Of a DNA stretch of 64,000 nt, positions 14,352 through 25,135 are shown piece by piece. Every line of letters begins with the position of its first letter. The first letter of the stretch is position 1. The stretch spans positions 1 to 64,000 of the forward strand of contig NZ_JAQUOY010000008.1 of the NCBI RefSeq assembly GCF_028716865.1, in the 5' to 3' direction. Both the position numbers and the translations under genes were made by a program. The notes under the pieces were generated by a model, which was not told where the DNA came from, did not search any database, and saw nothing but the letters and a program-made list of their open reading frames with translations. The DNA comes from Candidatus Methylomirabilis sp. (GTDB lineage Bacteria; Methylomirabilota; Methylomirabilia; Methylomirabilales; Methylomirabilaceae).

Positions 14352-15413
14352 ATGATCGGAAAACAGATAATTGTAGAGTTGCTAGTTGCGGCCGCTGTGG
14401 GGCTTTTGTCGAGCGCCTGGTTGCTGTGGCTACGGCGGATCGGACTGCGCGCGCTCACCAGATTGGCCCGCACAACTGAGAGTAGACTCGACGACCTGGC
14501 GCTCTCGGCGTTTCGGCTTCCCTCACTGCTTTGGTGTCTTGTGCTTGGCGTTTATATCGGCCTGAGTGCCGCCCCTACCATGCCCACCAGGATCGGGCAA
14601 CTCGTCAATGATGTACTGGTGATCGTGCTCATCCTCTCTGTAACTATCGCCGTCGGTCGGTTCTTCGCAGCCTCCATCGTGTCCTATGCCGACCGTCTGG
14701 GTCTCGCAATTGCCGTGACAGGGCTCACCACCGCCCTGGTGAGAGGCGTCGTCTACCTGTGCGGCGCCCTCGTCCTACTGAACACGCTTGGAATATCGAT
14801 TACCCCTATCCTCACCGCCTTGGGTGTCGGCGGCCTGGCCGTAGCCTTAGCGCTTCAAGGTTCGCTGGCGAACCTGTTCGCCGGGATCCACATTCTAGTG
14901 GAAAAACCGATCCGCGTAGGGGATTACATCAAGTTGGAGTCGGGCCAGGAAGGGTACGTGGTCGATATCGGCTGGCGGACCACGCGGGTCCGCATGTTGC
15001 CCAATAACATGGTCATTGTGCCGAACGCCAAGTTGGCTGAGAGCATCGTGATTAACTACCACCTTCCAGAGAAACGGATGTCGGTCCTCATTCCCATCGG
15101 TGTTGGTTACCAGAGCGATCCCGCAAGGATCGAAGCGATCCTGATGGAGGAGGTCGCTTCCGCCATGGACCACGTCCCCGGGCTGTTGGCTGAACCTGCC
15201 CCCTTCGTTCGGTTCATTCCTGGGTTCGGCGAGTCGTCTCTTGATTTCACCTTAATCGTGCAGATCAACGAGGTTGCGGACCAGTACCTGGTTCAGCATG
15301 AGCTGCGAAAACGGATCTTCGCCCGCTTTCAGAAGGAGGGGATCGAGATCCCTTTTCCACAGCGAGTAGTCCACGTCCACGCGGCGTCTGTCGAGGTGCC
15401 GCCTGCCTGTTGA
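14352..15413 (+). CDS. mscS: MscS-family mechanosensitive channel
   Basis: 353 residues. Four to five N-terminal helices lead into the pore helix and upper vestibule: TALGVGGLAVALALQGSLANLFAGI, given here only as the conserved ALGVGGLAVALAL plus NLFAGIHILVEKP; then RVGDYIKLES and VPNAKLAES. Such channels open under membrane tension and release solutes on hypo-osmotic shock. It stands directly upstream of the compatible-solute genes, so synthesis and emergency release of osmolytes are encoded side by side. RBS GGTGAGGGG. Confidence 0.93.
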   Translation: MIGKQIIVELLVAAAVGLLSSAWLLWLRRIGLRALTRLARTTESRLDDLALSAFRLPSLLWCLVLGVYIGLSAAPTMPTRIGQLVNDVLVIVLILSVTIAVGRFFAASIVSYADRLGLAIAVTGLTTALVRGVVYLCGALVLLNTLGISITPILTALGVGGLAVALALQGSLANLFAGIHILVEKPIRVGDYIKLESGQEGYVVDIGWRTTRVRMLPNNMVIVPNAKLAESIVINYHLPEKRMSVLIPIGVGYQSDPARIEAILMEEVASAMDHVPGLLAEPAPFVRFIPGFGESSLDFTLIVQINEVADQYLVQHELRKRIFARFQKEGIEIPFPQRVVHVHAASVEVPPAC

Positions 15414-15502: not shown

Positions 15503-16174
15503 ATGCTTGAGCGTGCACAGGAGCCCTTCGAGTTTTGCTGTTGCATCGAGCTCCGCCAGATGCTGGGGCTGAAAGCGGAGACCGAAAAGGAACTGGCAGG
15601 CCTGATACAACAGGTCCCGCTGGATTCGATCTACTACCACACGTGCAGCCTCTTGATTCGTCACCGGTACAGGGCGGGGACGTTTTCCAACGACTTTGCG
15701 ACATGGCTGGCAGTCCAGGTGGGAGATCGAGTGCTGGGCGAGCGCCTTGCAGTGCTGGATCCCTTCAGTTTCGATACGTTGGTCGATCTGAGAGATGAGA
15801 TCGTTTCCATAATTGACAGTCACCTGAAGAGCATCGTCGTGGTTCCGCGTGTGGTGTACGGGGAATCGTTCAACTTCGTCCAATCTCGAATCGTGGCGGT
15901 GCCGGCAGGGATGGTGGCTCACACCCTGGAGGAGTTTCGGCAGGCCGTCAGTGAGATAGATGACAGGACCATTTACTACCACACTCTCGAAGCCCGAGTG
16001 CGGCGCAAGCACAGGCAAAACGACTTTTCCGCCTGGTTGCGAGATCGCCTCAGCCTGCCGGCCCTGGCCGCCAGGATCGAGGCCTTGAACCCCTTCACTG
16101 GGGGTCTGGAATGGGTGAGGATACAGATGTTAGCCTCTTGCGACCAGGTGCTCATCCAAGGGCGAGACTTATGA
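15503..16174 (+). CDS. DUF5752-family protein
   Basis: 223 residues made of two related halves: SIYYHTCSLLIRHRY followed by SNDFATWL at ~40-75, and TIYYHTLEARVRRKH followed by NDFSAWL at ~155-185. DUF5752 proteins commonly accompany trehalose synthase genes; the biochemical role is not established. The stop overlaps the ATG of the TreT-like gene (ATGA), so the two products are probably made together. No signal peptide or membrane segment. The internal duplication suggests a pseudo-dimeric fold. Confidence 0.8.
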   Translation: MLERAQEPFEFCCCIELRQMLGLKAETEKELAGLIQQVPLDSIYYHTCSLLIRHRYRAGTFSNDFATWLAVQVGDRVLGERLAVLDPFSFDTLVDLRDEIVSIIDSHLKSIVVVPRVVYGESFNFVQSRIVAVPAGMVAHTLEEFRQAVSEIDDRTIYYHTLEARVRRKHRQNDFSAWLRDRLSLPALAARIEALNPFTGGLEWVRIQMLASCDQVLIQGRDL

Positions 16175-17373
16175 ATGCCGTGAGCCTTGACGACTACCGG
16201 GGGGTCACGTCAAAAGGGACCATGTGCTTCCTCCGATCGCTCGCGGAACGTGTCCGGGGCCGACGGTTCCTGCATGTGAATTCCACCAGTCATGGCGGGG
16301 GGGTTGCCGAGATCCTCCATCGGCTGATTCCGATCATGGTTGGCCTTGGGGTCGATGCGCGCTGGGAGGTGATGAAGGGCAACTCTGCCTTCTTCTCTGC
16401 TACGAAAGCTCTTCACAACAGCCTCCAGGGACAGAAGGCGTCGATCACCAAAGAGATACTCAGCGACTACATCGAGACGAATCAAGAAAACGCCAGAAAC
16501 CTGTCGCTGGAAGGGGACGTGGTGCTCATCCACGACCCTCAGCCTGCGCCGCTCATCCAATATCGCTTACCGGAAGGGAAATGGGTCTGGCGCTGCCATA
16601 TCGATCTGTCGCATCCGCAATGGCCGGCCTGGCGAGCGCTCCGAAGGTTTGTCAAGAGGTACAATGCAGCCGTCTTCTCGTTGCCGAAGTTCGCGCAACG
16701 ACTCCCTCTCCCGCAGTACCTTGTGTATCCCTCAATCGACCCGCTCAGCAAGAAGAATTGCGACCTCAGCACGACCGAGGTAGACGAGATCCTGGCCCGA
16801 TTAGCAATCCCGAGGGACAAGCCGATTCTTCTCCAGGTATCCCGGTTCGACCGCTTCAAGGACCCTGTCGGGGTCATCAGGGCCTACCGGCTGGTGAAGA
16901 AGCACCACGATTGCCGACTGATCCTGGCGGGTGGGGGTGCGGAGGATGATCCGGAGGGAGCAGCGGTTTTAGCCGAGGTAAGAGAAGAGGCAGGCTACGA
17001 TCCGGACATCCATGTCCTCGAGTTGCCACCGGACGCGCACTTGGAGATCAACGCCTTGCAGCGGGCGGCCACGATTGTTGTACAAAAGTCGATCCGGGAA
17101 GGGTTCGGGCTGACCGTAGCAGAAGCGATGTGGAAGGGGAAACCCGTCGTGGGGGGTGCTGCCGGCGGAATCACGGTGCAGGTGATCGACGATGTGACCG
17201 GCTACACGGTGCATTCGATCGAAGGTGCGGCATTCCGTGTCAGGCACCTCCTCAACAATCCTGACCTGATCGCCAGAATGGGGGAGGCGGGGCGGGAGTA
17301 TATTCGGCGTGAGTTCCTGATCACTCGCCATCTGGCCGACTACTTGACGCTACTTATGGTGCTCACGGAGTGA
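16171..17373 (+). CDS. treT: Trehalose synthase, TreT-type glycosyltransferase (GT4)
   Basis: 400 residues with two Rossmann halves. N-terminal HVNSTSHGGGVAEILHRLIP (donor/acceptor loop) and HDPQPAPL; C-terminal ILLQVSRFDRFKDP, LAGGGAEDDPEG, and the EX7E-type motif REGFGLTVAEAMWKGKPVVG. TreT enzymes make trehalose directly from a nucleotide-glucose and glucose, reversibly. Start ATG 16171 overlaps the DUF5752 stop. With OtsA/OtsB just downstream, the organism appears to encode two independent routes to trehalose. Confidence 0.88.
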   Translation: MNAVSLDDYRGVTSKGTMCFLRSLAERVRGRRFLHVNSTSHGGGVAEILHRLIPIMVGLGVDARWEVMKGNSAFFSATKALHNSLQGQKASITKEILSDYIETNQENARNLSLEGDVVLIHDPQPAPLIQYRLPEGKWVWRCHIDLSHPQWPAWRALRRFVKRYNAAVFSLPKFAQRLPLPQYLVYPSIDPLSKKNCDLSTTEVDEILARLAIPRDKPILLQVSRFDRFKDPVGVIRAYRLVKKHHDCRLILAGGGAEDDPEGAAVLAEVREEAGYDPDIHVLELPPDAHLEINALQRAATIVVQKSIREGFGLTVAEAMWKGKPVVGGAAGGITVQVIDDVTGYTVHSIEGAAFRVRHLLNNPDLIARMGEAGREYIRREFLITRHLADYLTLLMVLTE

Positions 17374-17470: not shown

Positions 17471-19726
17471 ATGCGGGTTACTCTGCGGCTGGTTCTCGCA
17501 ATCGTGACGGTCGTGAGCGTGATCGTACTGGCTTTCACTCTTCTGCAGGTACGTCAGGAAAAGCTGAGGCAGATGAGTGATCTTGAGCGTCGGACCTCGC
17601 TGTTGGCTGAAAGTCTGGGGGAGACGGTCGAGCCCTTGGTTGGACAAGGCCAGTCAGCGCGGCTGCAGCGGATTGTCGAGAAGTTCGGGAACCGGGAACG
17701 GCTCGCCGGAGTAGCTGTCTACGATACGAAGGGGCTCCCGCTGGCCGTCACGCACACGCTCGCTGCCCATGTCGCAACGCCTCCAAAGCACGTGATCGAG
17801 GCAATAGCCGCAGATCACCAAATAGGCGATGTGATCACCATCGGTGAGAAGCTGATGTACGTGTTCGTTCTGCCGCTTCACCCTGAGGCGCAGGTCGCCG
17901 GCGCTCTTGCGCTCTTCCATGATGCGAGCTATATCCAGCATCGTCTTCGCGAGATATGGCAATACAATTTCCTGCGACTGTTGATTCAGGCCCTCTTGAT
18001 CTCATTGACGACGCTGCTCGTTGTGCGATTGACCCTCATCGGGCCCATCGTACGAGTAGCCGAGTGGATCAAGCGATTGCGCAAAGGAGAGCTGATCGAT
18101 GCCTCGCTACTCTCCGGTAAAGGCCTCCTGAACCCGCTGGTAAGGGAAGTTACGCACTTGGCAAAGAGCCTGTCGGCTGCAAAGGCCGCCGCCGAAGATG
18201 CCACGCTCAGGCAAGCGGGGGAAGCGCTCTGGACTCCCAGGTCATTGAAAGACCACCTGCGGCTAAAACTCCGGGGAAGATCGATCTTCGTCATCTCCAA
18301 TCGTGAGCCTTACATCCATGTCAACAATGGGAAGCAGGTGGAATGCCTCGTTCCGGCGAGTGGCTTAGTGACCGCACTGGAGCCTGTGCTGGCCGCCTGT
18401 GAAGGTACATGGATTGCCCATGGGAGCGGTGACGCCGATAGCCTGGTCGTGGATGACGCAGACAGGCTCAGGGTCCCTCCTGCAGACCCGAAATACATCC
18501 TGAAGAGAGTGTGGCTGACGAAGGCGGAAGAAAAGGGATACTACTATGGGTTTGCCAATGAGGGACTATGGCCCCTCTGCCACATTGCTCATACCCGGCC
18601 CGTCTTTCGAGCCGACGACTGGCGATACTATCGGGATGTGAACGGCAAGTTTGCGCAGGTTGCGTTGGCGGAGCTCGAAGGTGTTGAAGAGCCCTGTGTG
18701 CTTATCCAGGATTATCACTTTGCCCTCCTGCCACGGTTGATCAAGGAAAGGCGACCTGATGCTCGCGTGGGGCTCTTCTGGCATATCCCATGGCCCAATC
18801 CCGAATCGTTCGGTATCTGTCCGTGGCAGCGCGAACTGCTGCATGGGATGCTGGGTGCAGACCTGATCGGATTCCACATTCAGTTCCATTGCAACAATTT
18901 CCTGGACACGGTAGACCGGGCGCTGGAATCACGCATCGAGTGGGAGCACTTTGCCGTCAGGCGTGGCAACTCTACAACGTATGTCAAACCCTTCCCGATC
19001 AGTATCGCCTTCCCCGATGACGCGACAGCGCCGGGCGAAGGCACCGTGGAGCCACAGGGCAAGGATGCGCTGCTCATGGAATTCGGCGTTCGGACAACCT
19101 ATCTTGCCGTAGGCGTCGACCGCCTCGACTATACCAAAGGACTGCTTGAACGTCTGCGAGGCATCGAGCGGTTCTTGGAGAAATACCCGAAGTTCCAGGG
19201 GGAGTTTACCTTCGTGGAGCTCGGGGCGCCGAGCCGCACCCACATCAAGCAGTATCAGGACCTGATCGCCGCCATCGAGGCCGAGTCGGATCGCATCAAC
19301 TGGCGCTTCCAGAATAGCGACTGGAAACCCATTCTTCTCCTCAAACGGCACCACACCGGCCAGGCGATCCGGCGATTCTATAAGGCGGCCGATGCCTGCC
19401 TGGTCACATCGCTCCACGATGGGATGAACCTTGTTGCGAAGGAGTTCGTGGCGGCTCGGGAGGATGAACAAGGCGTCCTGATATTGAGTCGATTTACAGG
19501 GGCGTCTCGCGAGTTGCGCGATGCCCTTATCGTCAACCCCTACGACATTGAAGAGCTGGCAGACGCCGTCTATGCGGCCGTGAACATGACCAAGGAAGAG
19601 CAGACTATTCGCATGCGACGGATGCGTGACGTAGTGAAAGAGCACAACGTGTATCGATGGGCTGCCGATCTGATGACTGAGCTCGTGCAGGTTCGTGTGG
19701 AGGAGGCGCAGGTCCCAGTGGCCTGA
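17471..19726 (+). CDS. otsA: Membrane-anchored trehalose-6-phosphate synthase with sensor-like N-terminus
   Basis: 751 residues, far longer than a normal OtsA (~470). Residues ~5-25 form a first helix, ~26-165 an extracytoplasmic sensor-like region, ~168-190 a second helix and ~190-245 a HAMP-like linker. From ~265 on it is a GT20 synthase: [60 protein letters not shown] and [14 protein letters not shown] are all conserved. The enzyme makes trehalose-6-phosphate from UDP- or ADP-glucose and glucose-6-phosphate. The N-terminal architecture matches that of the histidine kinase at 20627. I infer that synthase activity is gated by a transmembrane signal. RBS GGAGGAGAGG. Confidence 0.93.
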
Positions 19727-19740
19727 CCTGATACGCCCCG

Positions 19741-20559
19741 ATGGAATGGCTGTGGTCCCAATGGCCGCAGGTCGCGGCGGAAATCTTGAGCAGTAGTCAT
19801 ACAGTGCTGTTCCTGGATTACGACGGCACATTGACGCGGATCGCTCCCACCCCGGAGCAGGCGACGCTTTCTGCTTCGACACGGTCGGTGCTCCGGGAGC
19901 TCGCGCACCGTCCTCGAATGACGGTTGCCGTGATCAGCGGCCGACGTCTCAATGAGCTGCGACGGCTGGTCAGGGTGCGAGATTTAATCTACATCGGCAA
20001 TCACGGACTGGAGATGTGGCAAGATGGTCAGCAGGTTGGAGTGATCGTGCCACAGCCGTTACAGGAAGCCGTCGCCCATATTCGCTCTCAGCTCACCAGT
20101 CTTGTGGCAGAAATCCCTGGTGTGCTGATCGAGGACAAAGGCCTGTCGGTCAGCCTGCATTACCGGTTGGTGCCGACCAGGCTGGAGAGTCAGCTCAAGA
20201 CGGTGGTCCTGCGCGACGTGCTTCCCCGTGTGTACTCATCAGGACTGACAGTCCTTCACGGAAAGAAGGTCATCGAACTCCGCCCCAATCTCAACTGGAC
20301 AAAGGGTCATGCCGCACTGAGGTTGATGAAGCACATCCGCCGACGCTCGGTCCTGCCGGTTTATATCGGCGACGATCGAACTGACGAAGATGCATTTAGA
20401 GCACTGGCCGAGGGCATCACGATACGGGTCGGCGCCCATGAGGGATCGAAGGCCCACTATTACGTGCGGGACGTGAAGGAAGTGATTGCGCTGCTCCGAT
20501 GGATAGCGCAACCTTCTCAGCGGGATAGTGACGGGCCTCATGGCCGGCGCAGCCGATGA
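19741..20559 (+). CDS. otsB: Trehalose-6-phosphate phosphatase
   Basis: 272 residues, HAD superfamily. Catalytic DYDGTLTRI (nucleophile Asp and acid/base Asp), VISGRRL, GNHGLEMW, KGHAALRL (conserved Lys) and GDDRTDEDAF (metal-binding). It converts trehalose-6-phosphate to trehalose, completing the OtsA route 14 bp upstream. The last bases run into the stretch preceding the histidine kinase. Confidence 0.93.
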   Translation: MEWLWSQWPQVAAEILSSSHTVLFLDYDGTLTRIAPTPEQATLSASTRSVLRELAHRPRMTVAVISGRRLNELRRLVRVRDLIYIGNHGLEMWQDGQQVGVIVPQPLQEAVAHIRSQLTSLVAEIPGVLIEDKGLSVSLHYRLVPTRLESQLKTVVLRDVLPRVYSSGLTVLHGKKVIELRPNLNWTKGHAALRLMKHIRRRSVLPVYIGDDRTDEDAFRALAEGITIRVGAHEGSKAHYYVRDVKEVIALLRWIAQPSQRDSDGPHGRRSR

Positions 20560-20626: not shown

Positions 20627-22069
20627 ATGAGAATTGGGACAAGGCTGGTTACCTCCCTGACGATTGCGGTAGCGATCGTGACGGGTCTGTATCTGTACCG
20701 ACAGTTGAGTGCGGAGCGGGACGCGCTGATCGAGCAGCGTGAGCGGGAAATTCTGGTGATGGCCAGGACCTTGGAGGTGGCAGTCCGGAATGCCGTCCGC
20801 CGCGACCAGTGGGAGGACGTTCAAGAGCTCTTCGAGGAGGCGAAGGGATACGCCGGAGTCGCTCGCGTGACACTCTTTCTGGCCGACGGCACTCCTCTTG
20901 TTGGGGGGGACCAGGAAGGGATCGAGGTGACGCCTGCCAAGGCGGAGTTCCAAGAGGCTATCCAGCAGAACAAGGCGAAGCGCTTCTTCCATACGTTGAA
21001 CGGGGAGCAGGCCCTCCACTACCTACGTCCCATCCGACTGGTCAAAAGAGGCCCGGCCCTTCTTGAGATTGTGTATCGGACCTCGCAGATCGAGGGAGCC
21101 TACCTTCGCCGCCGAGACGAGATCGTCTTAGCCGGGATCGCCATCATGGGGGCGATTGCCATGGTGTTCTGGTACCTGACAAAACGAAACATCTCCAGGC
21201 CTATTCAAGCGCTGATTGAGGGAGCCGCCGCTATTGGGGCTGGGGAATTGGATCGACGGATACCTATTATACGTAGGGATGAATTGGGCCGATTGGCGGC
21301 TGAGTTCAATCGGATGACGGAAAACCTGAAACAGGCCAGGGAGCAGATTTTGGAGGAGACGGTCAAGAAGCTTGAACTGGAACGACAGCTTCAGCATTCC
21401 GAGAAGCTGGCGGCGGTGGGACGGCTCGCCGCAGGTCTGGCTCACGAGATCGGGACGCCTCTGAACGTCATCTCCGGGAGGGCGGAGTATCTGCTCCCGG
21501 AGCTTTCTGGAGGTGATCTCAGATCAAAGAGCCTGCAAATTATTGTCGAGCAGATCGGGCGGATCAGGCGGACCGTCGAACAGCTCCTCGGATACGCCAG
21601 AGTTCACCCGCCCCACATCGCCCCTACGCCGCTGCCGAGCATCCTCTCGAATGTCGTGGCGCTGCTGGACCACGAGCTGACCAGAGGAGGGATCCGTGTT
21701 GAGCTGAAGATTCCCGCAACCCTTCCCAGTGTCGCCGCTGATCCTGACTTGCTTCAGCAGGTCTTCGTCAATCTCCTGATAAATGCCCTTGACGCTATGC
21801 CGGATGGCGGGGATGTACAGGTGGCGGCTGAGGCTCATGAGGGCGTGATTGAGGTACGTGTAGAAGATACCGGATGCGGTATCCCTTCTGAAAGCCTCCC
21901 CCGGATCTTCGACCCATTCTTTACCACCAAGAAGGTCGGGAAGGGGACCGGTCTGGGGCTCTCCGTGGTTTACGGGATCGTGAAGGATCATGGAGGAACC
22001 ATCGAGGCGAAGAGCGAGCCTGGTGTGGGAACGACCTTTCGGATCACCTTTCCGGTATACCGCCCGTAG
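20627..22069 (+). CDS. Membrane sensor histidine kinase
   Basis: 480 residues: N-terminal helix, extracytoplasmic single sensor domain (~40-170), second helix (~180-200), HAMP (~205-255), HisKA with H-box [12 protein letters not shown], and HATPase with N-box [16 protein letters not shown]1 VEDTGCGIP and G2 [11 protein letters not shown]. Start chosen at ATG 20627 (MRIGTRLV, typical of HAMP kinases); a GTG at 20612 is an alternative. It sits in the trehalose/glucosylglycerate cluster and probably signals to the receiver protein at 23506. Its input half is organised like that of OtsA. Confidence 0.92.
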
Positions 22070-22147
22070 CCCAACATCCTGGTTCCCACGGCAAGGGATC
22101 ACACGCGGCTCAATGAGCCTGCAAAGGAGATAAGGCGAGGCTACTTG

Positions 22148-23440
22148 ATGGACTTTTCAACGGCTCAGCGCAAGCTTCTTGACCTATTCAGATTCATTCT
22201 GGATTTCTGCGATATCGGTCGCGCGTTCGATCGTTGTCGGGTAGAGGACGTGATCGGGTCTGCGCATCATACCCAGGGAAGGATATACGTCGTCGCGATA
22301 GGGAAGAGCGCACCCGGCATGGCGGAGGAACTTCTCAGGAGATCGGGCATTGCCCCATTTGCCGGCGTGTTAGCCAGTCCTGTGCTCAATGGCTGGAGTC
22401 ATCCTCGATTTCAGACCTTCGAAGGTGGGCACCCAATGCCGAACAAGGAGAGCATTGATGCCGCAAGGGCTACCTTATCCATGATGAATGGACTGACCGG
22501 CAATGATGCAGTGATCTTCCTGGTGTCCGGCGGGGGGTCGGCATGCTTCGAGTTGCCGATAAGTGATGCTATTACTCTCACTGACCTTGTGGAGATAAAC
22601 CGTGTACTGATTTCAGGGGAGTTGACCATCGTCGAGACCAACACGGTGAGGAAGCACCTATCCAAAGTGAAGGGCGGAAGGCTCGCTATAGCTGCAGCGC
22701 CGGCACAGCAACTGACGCTGTACATCTCCGATGTACCTCGCGGTTATCCTTCCTTTGTGGCGTCAGGGCCGTCGATGCCGGATGATTCCTCCATTCAGGA
22801 CATGGATACGCTCATCCAGAGACATAAGCTGACACCACTACTCCCGAACTCCATTAAGATGCTCATCCGGTGCGGTATCGTGCCCGAAACACCGAAATCT
22901 GGACATCCAGCCTTCCGGACGGCACGTTGGTGCAAGCTTCTGGACAACGATGATGCCATCACAGCGGCAGTGAGATTCGCTGAACAGTCCGGATGGAAGC
23001 CTATTGTAGTCGAGCTTTCGGACGATATCTCCGTTCGTGATGCGGCCAGGACACTAACCGAGCGGGCTGAAAATGAAGTCGATGGCGGTGATGGAAAGCC
23101 CGTTGTGATAATATCCGGCGGTGAACTGGTATCTCCGGTCCGAGGTCGTGGACGAGGGGGTCGAAATCAGGCATTCGCCTTGGAATGTGCAGAGGTCATT
23201 GCAGGCAAACGGATATCAGTTCTCAGTGCAGGGACTGATGGAATTGACGGAAACTCAGATGCAGCGGGAGCTCTCGCAGACAGTACGACTCTCGGTAGAT
23301 CTCTCGCGGCTGGACTGGTTGTGGCGAAGGCCCGCGAGGCATCCGATTCCAATGGATTCTTCGACCGACTTGGAGATGCAATTGTGACAGGACCAACGGG
23401 TATCAATGTTCGTGATCTCAGGATCGTGCTGGCATGGTGA
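22148..23440 (+). CDS. Glycerate 2-kinase (MOFRL/GckA family)
   Basis: 430 residues. N-terminal DUF4147 domain (VVAIGKSAPGMAEELL, GGHPMPNKES, FLVSGGGSACFELP) and C-terminal MOFRL domain (ISGGELVSPVRGRGRGGRNQ, LSAGTDGIDGNSDAAGA). These kinases phosphorylate D-glycerate to 2-phosphoglycerate. In this setting it may return glycerate released from glucosyl- or mannosyl-glycerate to central metabolism, or simply serve one-carbon/serine metabolism. ATG 22148 chosen; a TTG directly before it is the alternative. It splits the histidine kinase from its likely receiver. Confidence 0.9.
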   Translation: MDFSTAQRKLLDLFRFILDFCDIGRAFDRCRVEDVIGSAHHTQGRIYVVAIGKSAPGMAEELLRRSGIAPFAGVLASPVLNGWSHPRFQTFEGGHPMPNKESIDAARATLSMMNGLTGNDAVIFLVSGGGSACFELPISDAITLTDLVEINRVLISGELTIVETNTVRKHLSKVKGGRLAIAAAPAQQLTLYISDVPRGYPSFVASGPSMPDDSSIQDMDTLIQRHKLTPLLPNSIKMLIRCGIVPETPKSGHPAFRTARWCKLLDNDDAITAAVRFAEQSGWKPIVVELSDDISVRDAARTLTERAENEVDGGDGKPVVIISGGELVSPVRGRGRGGRNQAFALECAEVIAGKRISVLSAGTDGIDGNSDAAGALADSTTLGRSLAAGLVVAKAREASDSNGFFDRLGDAIVTGPTGINVRDLRIVLAW

Positions 23441-23505
23441 AGCCTGAACTGAGTGTGAGCACGCATGACAGGAGAATGGCTATTGCATAAGTGGAGGTTT
23501 CGTCA

Positions 23506-23901
23506 ATGACCTCATGTGAAGTGTACAGACCGAAGATCCTGGTCGTTGATGACGATCAGGAGATGCGTCAACTTCTGGACGATGTCCTGACCCGGGAAGG
23601 ATTCCATGTCGCCCAGGCAGCGAATGGATCAGAGGCCCTTGTTGCGATCCGAGGCACCGCATACAATGTGATCGTCCTCGACAAGATCATGACCGACATG
23701 AGCGGACTGGAAATCCTCCCCGAGATCAAGCGCCTCCAGCCTGGGGCTCAGGTCATCCTCATTACGGCCTTCGGCGACCGGGAGACGGGTGTGGAAGCCA
23801 TAGGGAAGGGAGCGACAGCCTACCTCGCAAAGCCTTTCGGAATATCCGTTTTGGTTCAGATGGTCAAGAAGGTTCTCGAACAGAAGATCGGCGAAGCGTA
23901 A
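23506..23901 (+). CDS. Stand-alone response-regulator receiver protein
   Basis: 131 residues, a single CheY-like domain: acidic pocket VVDDDQE, phospho-acceptor Asp in VIVLDKIMTDMSG, conserved Thr/Ser in LITAFGD and Lys in LAKPF. There is no output domain, so it must act by protein contact. ATG 23506 is chosen because GGAGG lies 9 nt upstream. Likely partner is the kinase at 20627; the target could be one of the osmolyte enzymes next to it. Confidence 0.9.
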   Translation: MTSCEVYRPKILVVDDDQEMRQLLDDVLTREGFHVAQAANGSEALVAIRGTAYNVIVLDKIMTDMSGLEILPEIKRLQPGAQVILITAFGDRETGVEAIGKGATAYLAKPFGISVLVQMVKKVLEQKIGEA

Positions 23902-23926
23902 CGACTGTTCAATTGGAGGGAATCGA

Positions 23927-25135
23927 ATGGGTGATTTCCATCAGACAGGCGTGATCACGACACTCCATCGGCTTGGAAAGCCAAACCTGGAGCAGCTTGA
24001 GAAGGAACTGGAAGAAACACTGCTGTATCGGCCTATCGCCTTGGTGCTGCCGTGTCTCTACTCTGAACTGGAGGGCCAGGCGCTACCCAGGATCGTCGAT
24101 GAACTGGCCCAGGTCCGGTATCTGCGAGAGATCGTCGTTGGCCTGGGACGGGCCGGCAAAGAGGAGTTCCTGAGGGCCAAGGCGTTCTTTGCGCCTCTTC
24201 CTCAGGCGCCCCTTCTGCTCTGGAACGACGGACCCAGGATCCAGGCCCTCTACCAACTACTGGAGGAACGCGGCATCTCTGCAGGTCCTGATGGCAAAGG
24301 GAGGTCGGCGTGGATGACGTTCGGCTACGTCCTGGCTCGTGGCCAAAGCGACGTCATCGCCCTCCACGACTGCGACATCCTGACCTACCATCGAGAACTG
24401 CTTGCTCGACTGTGTTATCCGGTGGCGAATCCCCGATTGGCCTTCGAGTTTGCAAAAGGCTACTACAGCCGGGTGACGGATCGGCTCCACGGGAGAGCTG
24501 TCAGACTCTTGGTGGTGCCCCTCATCCGAGCCCTCCAGCGGATCTTGGACCAGCAACCGTTTTTGACCTACCTGGATAGCTTCAGATACCCTTTAGCCGG
24601 CGAATTCTCCATGATCGCCGATCTGGCCCGGGTGAACAGGATCCCGTCGGATTGGGGGCTGGAAGTTGGGGTGCTGGCTCAGGTCTATCGGAACTGTGCC
24701 GTGGGCAGGGTCTGCCAGGTCGACCTCGCCGACACCTATGAACACAAGCATCAGGCTCTCTCCGCGACCGATCCGAGCAAGGGTCTCACACGGATGGCGA
24801 TCGACATCACCAAGAGCATCCTCAGGACATTGGCTGAAGAGGGGACCGTCCTTTCCGATGGGCTCTTAAAGACCCTGCCGATCACCTATATCAGAACAGC
24901 CCGTGATATGCTGAGCCGATACCAGAATGACGCGTATATCAACGGGCTTGTGTATGACCAACATCAAGAAGGGCAAGCCGTAGAAGCCTTCGCGAAGGCA
25001 ATCCAGTTGGCGATTGAGGGATTTCTGGCTGACCCACTAGGTGTCCCTTTGATTCCCAACTGGAACCGTGTCCTGGCCGCGATTCCTGACTTCTTGACCA
25101 GGCTTCGGGAGGCGGTGGATGCTGATAACGCATAG
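23927..25135 (+). CDS. Glucosyl-3-phosphoglycerate synthase-like glycosyltransferase
   Basis: 402 residues, GT-A fold of the GT81/GpgS type. Visible: metal-binding ALHDCDILTY (DxD-like), GKGRSAWMTFGYVLARG, the acceptor-site stretch YPLAGEFSMIADL with WGLEVGVLAQVY, and a conserved His in DTYEHKHQ. GpgS enzymes transfer glucose to 3-phosphoglycerate, giving the precursor of the compatible solute glucosylglycerate. The phosphatase gene needed for the next step follows after 40 bp. Specificity for glucose versus mannose cannot be settled by eye. RBS TTGGAGGGAATCGA. Confidence 0.82.
   Translation: MGDFHQTGVITTLHRLGKPNLEQLEKELEETLLYRPIALVLPCLYSELEGQALPRIVDELAQVRYLREIVVGLGRAGKEEFLRAKAFFAPLPQAPLLLWNDGPRIQALYQLLEERGISAGPDGKGRSAWMTFGYVLARGQSDVIALHDCDILTYHRELLARLCYPVANPRLAFEFAKGYYSRVTDRLHGRAVRLLVVPLIRALQRILDQQPFLTYLDSFRYPLAGEFSMIADLARVNRIPSDWGLEVGVLAQVYRNCAVGRVCQVDLADTYEHKHQALSATDPSKGLTRMAIDITKSILRTLAEEGTVLSDGLLKTLPITYIRTARDMLSRYQNDAYINGLVYDQHQEGQAVEAFAKAIQLAIEGFLADPLGVPLIPNWNRVLAAIPDFLTRLREAVDADNA

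Follow-up and report, generated by a model that had tools for sequence, protein, structure and literature searches.

The gene at 17,471 in the window, the 64,000-nucleotide stretch of Candidatus Methylomirabilis DNA that was analysed, encodes a trehalose-6-phosphate synthase (TPS) of the GT20 family preceded by a complete receptor module of the TM-Cache-TM-HAMP type. The module spans residues 1 to about 245, and a short conserved linker joins it to the catalytic domain (Table 1). From its sequence, this protein, hereafter receptor-TPS, is probably a one-component transmembrane receptor-enzyme whose output is the synthase itself, with signal control of that output suggested. The same layout and the same start recur in about 100 genomes examined, distributed over at least 10 phyla. 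The sensor fusion is thus a widespread predicted TPS subfamily that extends beyond a single genome, a point absent from the initial annotation.

Table 1 Features of the receptor-TPS gene, its neighbours and the antiporter-GT20 frames. Window coordinates unless a locus is named.
Feature	Position	Strand	Basis
MscS-type mechanosensitive channel	14352..15413	+	PF00924, PF21082, PF21088
DUF5752 protein, conserved partner of TreT	15503..16174	+	PF19027 1.4e-59
TreT-like GT4 trehalose glycosyltransferase (start possibly further downstream)	16111..17373	+	PF21269; NF041139 below its cut-off
TM-sCache-TM-HAMP-linker-GT20 TPS, 751 aa, whole gene	17471..19726	+	ORF, Pfam, family alignment
Transmembrane helix 1, residues 7-25	17489..17545	+	Hydropathy; AF2 helix 2-59
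Extracytoplasmic single-Cache (PAS-like) sensor, residues ~27-160	17549..17950	+	Profile, fold search, sCache_3_2
Transmembrane helix 2, residues 167-185	17969..18025	+	Hydropathy, AF2
HAMP domain (by homology), residues ~188-240	18032..18190	+	Colinear with histidine-kinase Pfam HAMP; PDB HAMP matches at 167-237; conservation
Conserved coupling linker, residues 241-271	18191..18283	+	Conservation; low local pLDDT at 242-251
GT20 synthase domain, about residues 272-742 (PF00982 match 273-738), catalytic residues intact	18287..19684	+	PF00982 1.7e-112; PDB TPS structures; active-site conservation
OtsB, trehalose-6-phosphate phosphatase	19741..20559	+	PF02358 / TIGR00685 above cut-off
Histidine kinase with homologous TM-Cache-TM-HAMP input module	20627..22069	+	Pfam, BLASTP, family profile
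Antiporter-GT20 frame, L213	2421-5342	+	PF00999 Na_H_Exchanger by Pfam
Antiporter-GT20 frame, L176	1471-4395	-	PF00999 Na_H_Exchanger by Pfam
Antiporter-GT20 frame, L212	1007-5053	-	PF00999 Na_H_Exchanger by Pfam
Antiporter-GT20 frames, L210 and L211			Similar multi-TM extension

The reading frame opens with ATG and runs through 751 codons without a stop, forming a single continuous protein. The sequence GGAGGAGAGGAAGG lies directly 5' of the frame, and a strong Shine-Dalgarno stretch precedes the ATG. A misassembly or a wrongly placed start, with the synthase proper starting at about residue 255, was considered, and in-frame TTG codons do occur at residues 230 and 259; TTG259, however, has no obvious Shine-Dalgarno stretch, and the N-terminus is kept as protein, with the same start, in about 100 genomes. 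A scan with one genome per species returned at least 574 relatives, and nearly all of the best 80 have alignments spanning residue 1 to about 745. When their frames were extracted (matches beginning at residues 1-22), a start codon was found at or beside the receptor-TPS position in essentially all of the 80, the exception being L068, with no start codon in reach. No conserved internal start near residue 260 was found among the relatives. Shine-Dalgarno-like motifs occur internally somewhere in 37 of 106 members and before the annotated start in just 35 of 105, so this motif test does not discriminate. The initial annotation had considered that the start might be artefactual and that OtsA might begin near residue 260; the conservation of the N-terminus and of its start rules out such an internal start, and an artefact of either kind is scarcely credible.

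The receptor half contains two membrane helices, an extracytoplasmic domain and a HAMP-like linker ahead of a full GT20 domain, as first proposed, and this architecture is well supported. Residues 1-271 lie outside any known enzyme portion of a TPS in Pfam and PDB comparisons. Both membrane segments are present in 106/106 relatives by hydropathy. Six Lys or Arg residues fall within positions 186-206 versus two within 150-166, and this charge distribution fits a predicted cytoplasmic location of the N-terminus and the HAMP domain. With the window protein alone, Pfam yields only weak SMP_2 and CHASE8 matches, HAMP and sCache remaining below their cut-offs, while across 84 family members sCache_3_2 is matched in 23 and HAMP in 16 (best 4.9e-6). 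A phmmer search of the PDB with the window N-terminus alone gave no match, and the family profile was required: it retrieves the Cache domain of WalK (E=2.4e-4) and, with weaker matches at residues 167-243, HAMP regions from chemoreceptors, AF1503 and NarQ. In the AF2 monomer model of residues 1-275 (pLDDT 87, locally low at 242-251), a long helix leads into a PAS-like sheet, which is followed by another long helix and a pair of HAMP-like helices. The top match of this model in the fold search is WalK, whose entire TM-Cache-TM-HAMP part is covered (Z 16.4 over 263 residues), followed by the sensors of WalK, CitA, KinD and DcuS (Z 13.7-15.7); the match of the sensor fold to 4ywz reaches Z 15.7 over 136 residues. 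A PAS-like extracytoplasmic fold with a long N-terminal helix, the hallmark of a single Cache domain, is therefore present in the model and in the fold search. Residues ~188-240 directly follow the second membrane helix, carry a proline in helix 1 and a glutamate opening helix 2, and are colinear with bona fide HAMP domains; by homology, this predicted segment is a HAMP domain.

The same layout had been ascribed to the histidine kinase 0.9 kb downstream, and the comparison bears this out. The N-terminal family profile aligns with the kinase at 92 bits, colinear over 245 residues from the start methionine through HAMP, and the kinase start at 20627 (MRIGTRL) falls on profile position 1. Plain BLASTP between the two sensors gives E=3e-4. 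Three kinases in related genomes, carrying Pfam HAMP, HisKA and HATPase_c, score 91-108 bits with the profile, so that the supposition that HAMP or sensor similarity might be lacking fails. These colinear matches to HAMP-bearing kinases indicate, at the level of sequence, that the input half of receptor-TPS is the descendant of a kinase-type receptor. WalK-type kinases and the downstream kinase share with receptor-TPS the first membrane helix, the single Cache, the second helix and the HAMP domain in colinear homology, whereas their output is HisKA-HATPase and that of receptor-TPS is a biosynthetic glycosyltransferase.

The catalytic half scores 377 bits against PF00982 (cut-off 32.5), and PDB searches with receptor-TPS returned solved trehalose-6-phosphate synthases. 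Twelve substrate-binding residues were mapped on the PDB alignments and followed over 84 diverse members: Arg278, Gly298, Tyr358, Trp367, Asp414, His438, Arg551, Lys556, Arg589, Asp650, Asn653 and Glu658 are identical in 84/84. Four of them, Tyr358, Lys556, Asp650 and Glu658, correspond to Y89, K285, D379 and E387 of C. albicans Tps1, each essential for activity (PMC5527307). Receptor-TPS resembles E. coli OtsA and other GT20 synthases in its GT-B fold, its substrate-binding residues and the adjacent otsB, and differs from them in carrying a receptor module; relative to E. coli OtsA, it also falls in a subclade with [10 protein letters not shown]-type motifs. Its score against the NCBIfam OtsA equivalog TIGR02400 is 409.5 bits, below the cut-off of 564.85, and it is therefore called a TPS subclade and not an OtsA equivalog.

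Carriers of the fusion include members of Acidobacteriota, Elusimicrobiota, Nitrospirota, Omnitrophota, Bacteroidota, Verrucomicrobiota, Gemmatimonadota, Myxococcota/Deltaproteobacteria, Edwardsbacteria and Patescibacteria; most are metagenome-assembled genomes, so that single assignments may be wrong. The fused enzyme is the usual form in Methylomirabilota (52 full-length fused, 7 unfused and 1 TPS-TPP), and of 28 genomes from various phyla that were searched, 23 have receptor-TPS as their sole GT20 above threshold. A cultured carrier, Niastella soli (L070), additionally has a TPS-TPP gene (L121). Several genomes of the window's genus are without it, including a single-contig genome of 100% completeness, and the near-complete genomes G005, G009 and G004 of this genus yielded no match to GT20, so the trehalose route is unevenly distributed among its members. 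A tree built from 92 GT20 domains groups the fused enzymes with just 2 label changes and does not reject their forming one clade (p-AU 0.69), which fits a single origin of the sensor-fused enzymes. Sensor distances correlate with catalytic distances (r=0.72); the two halves have therefore been largely inherited together.

Unfused near relatives exist in the window's own order and in Aminobacter, so the catalytic domain can in principle do without the receptor. The Aminobacter aminovorans plasmid pAA02 (L228:3782-5599) encodes an unfused TPS that shares 55% identity with the GT20 domain of receptor-TPS, a natural soluble control from a cultured alphaproteobacterium. Five loci from the phylum of the Nitrospirota locus L004 (L191, L198, L202, L206 and L208) have a shorter, divergent sensor and a degenerate HAMP domain and keep the linker tryptophan. 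In other phyla, frames about 750 aa long were told apart from TPS-TPP fusions by the position of GT20, and the apparent N-terminal extensions of L164, L166, L175 and L215 look like open frame with no protein domain.

Five genomes from the phylum to which locus L012 belongs (recorded as Terriglobia/Acidobacteriota) show a different extension, each with a single frame that joins an antiporter to GT20. The antiporter part has 12-13 membrane segments, and in the GT20 tree these frames adjoin the clade holding the HAMP fusions. By their predicted domains, they amount to another membrane fusion of the same TPS lineage, distinct from the first. Since this lineage has also been joined to a cation/proton antiporter, membrane control may be a recurring theme for TPS. 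Whether the fused enzymes form a widespread, undescribed receptor class with an osmolyte-making output, in which the kinase was replaced once by a TPS and membrane control recurs, is an evenly balanced proposition.

Receptors with HAMP and Cache domains are known for outputs in signalling, namely kinases, cyclases, phosphatases and chemoreceptors. No description of a HAMP domain on a TPS was found in the freely available papers searched, the sole co-mention being an unrelated fungal study. SMP_2, the commonest Pfam match in the receptor-TPS family, is placed in the Cache superfamily by a census that, SMP_2 apart, gives Cache proteins known signal-transduction outputs and in its relevant passages mentions no biosynthetic enzyme output (PMC4822843). 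Receptor-TPS shares with the Cache receptors of that census the extracytoplasmic Cache input and differs from them in its biosynthetic output (PMC4822843). Both halves belong to known families, and the novelty lies in their combination, in how broadly it occurs and in how well it is conserved. The output is a metabolic enzyme making a stress protectant, and it is the sole TPS of many genomes in several phyla.

If signal control holds, the fusion would offer a compact means of reading out a transmembrane signal as enzyme turnover and would account for on-demand trehalose in these mostly uncultured bacteria. The extracytoplasmic single-Cache domain between the two membrane helices would detect a cue, and the HAMP domain would relay a conformational change through the short linker to the cytoplasmic GT20 domain. 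The signal would alter the rate of trehalose-6-phosphate formation, and OtsB from the next gene would turn the product into trehalose. Membrane localisation and HAMP-mediated dimerisation are expected for such a protein, the catalytic rate presumably changes with the signal, and the cue may be osmotic or envelope-related. Control of this kind would bypass transcription. TPS enzymes can be controlled allosterically, as with mycobacterial OtsA, on which 2-oxoglutarate and 2-phosphoglycerate act at the tetramer interface (PMC6879718). The proposed control of receptor-TPS would likewise be allosteric, but through a transmembrane module and not at that interface. Of the mycobacterial OtsA domains, the N-terminal one shows the greater dynamics, and movement of its first helix in the course of catalysis is reported (PMC6879718), which makes the linker junction of receptor-TPS a plausible control point; there the linker enters the synthase immediately ahead of the first strand and of the Arg278 motif.

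The distribution of conserved residues bears on whether the receptor half signals at all. Only HAMP Glu226, at the second-helix position, and linker residues Trp254 and Leu259 are absolutely invariant (84/84) within the N-terminal 260 residues, and HAMP Pro192 is kept in 82/84. Trp254 is also kept in the divergent Nitrospirota fusions, even where the HAMP region is degenerate, and in the unfused L215, and is absent from the unfused L111 and L115. Within the Cache domain, only Arg41 and Gly80 reach at least 90% conservation, so the sensor is freer than the HAMP, linker and catalytic residues; with so few invariant sensor residues, no ligand can be named. This poor sensor conservation, together with MscS and TreT just upstream in the window and the activation of a TPS by complex formation in the msc-gt-tpsp operon of T. 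tenax (PMC3634074), would suit the main rival explanation, namely that the receptor half serves only to tether the synthase to the membrane, close to MscS or in a complex with OtsB and TreT, and does not signal. A mere anchor, however, would not be expected to keep the Cache fold, Glu226 and Trp254 across phyla, and the kinase-type input module has been kept at full length and not eroded to a membrane anchor. Such scaffolding is accordingly judged unlikely. Direct transmembrane control of the synthase is the most economical reading of the predicted protein, because the HAMP domain and linker are under strong purifying selection.

The neighbourhood of the gene suggests what the controlled pathway may answer to. 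In the window, MscS is followed in order by DUF5752, TreT, receptor-TPS, OtsB, the histidine kinase, the glycerate kinase, a single-domain response regulator and a glucosyl-3-phosphoglycerate synthase-like gene. Close relatives keep most of this order, with MscS directly upstream in several. Of 46 distant loci flanked by 3.5 kb or more on each side, 34 have OtsB within 3.5 kb of receptor-TPS, 28 have TreT, 28 DUF5752, 7 MscS and 2 the kinase. OtsB, TreT and DUF5752 are therefore recurring partners, and the kinase is a local one. The frequency of otsB supports the predicted TPS product, and from MscS, OtsB, TreT and GpgS with glycerate kinase we infer a putative osmotic cue. The DUF5752 gene overlaps the start of TreT (15503-17373), and the two occur as a pair near receptor-TPS in 28/46 distant loci. 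We know of no function for DUF5752.

Two of these partners could themselves be the activators. In the archaeon Thermoproteus tenax, the GT4 protein of the msc-gt-tpsp operon activates TPS via complex formation (PMC3634074), and the window likewise encodes a mechanosensitive channel, a GT4 and a TPS together (14352, 16111 and 17471). TreT or DUF5752 might thus activate the synthase, with the sensor regulating that complex, a possibility in keeping with the frequency of both genes and with the glycosyltransferase-dependent activation demonstrated in T. tenax. Each of the two genes is absent nearby in 18/46 loci, however, and the T. tenax enzyme is a receptor-less, GT4-regulated TPS-TPP fusion, whereas OtsB is a separate gene in the window; nor has the T. 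tenax GT been shown to be a TreT. As a replacement for direct control, this arrangement is improbable, but by analogy a GT4 partner could act additionally.

Downstream of the kinase, at 22145-25135, lie a glycerate-kinase-like gene (MOFRL), the single-domain response regulator and the GpgS-like gene, which suggests that the same cluster may make a second compatible solute, glucosylglycerate.
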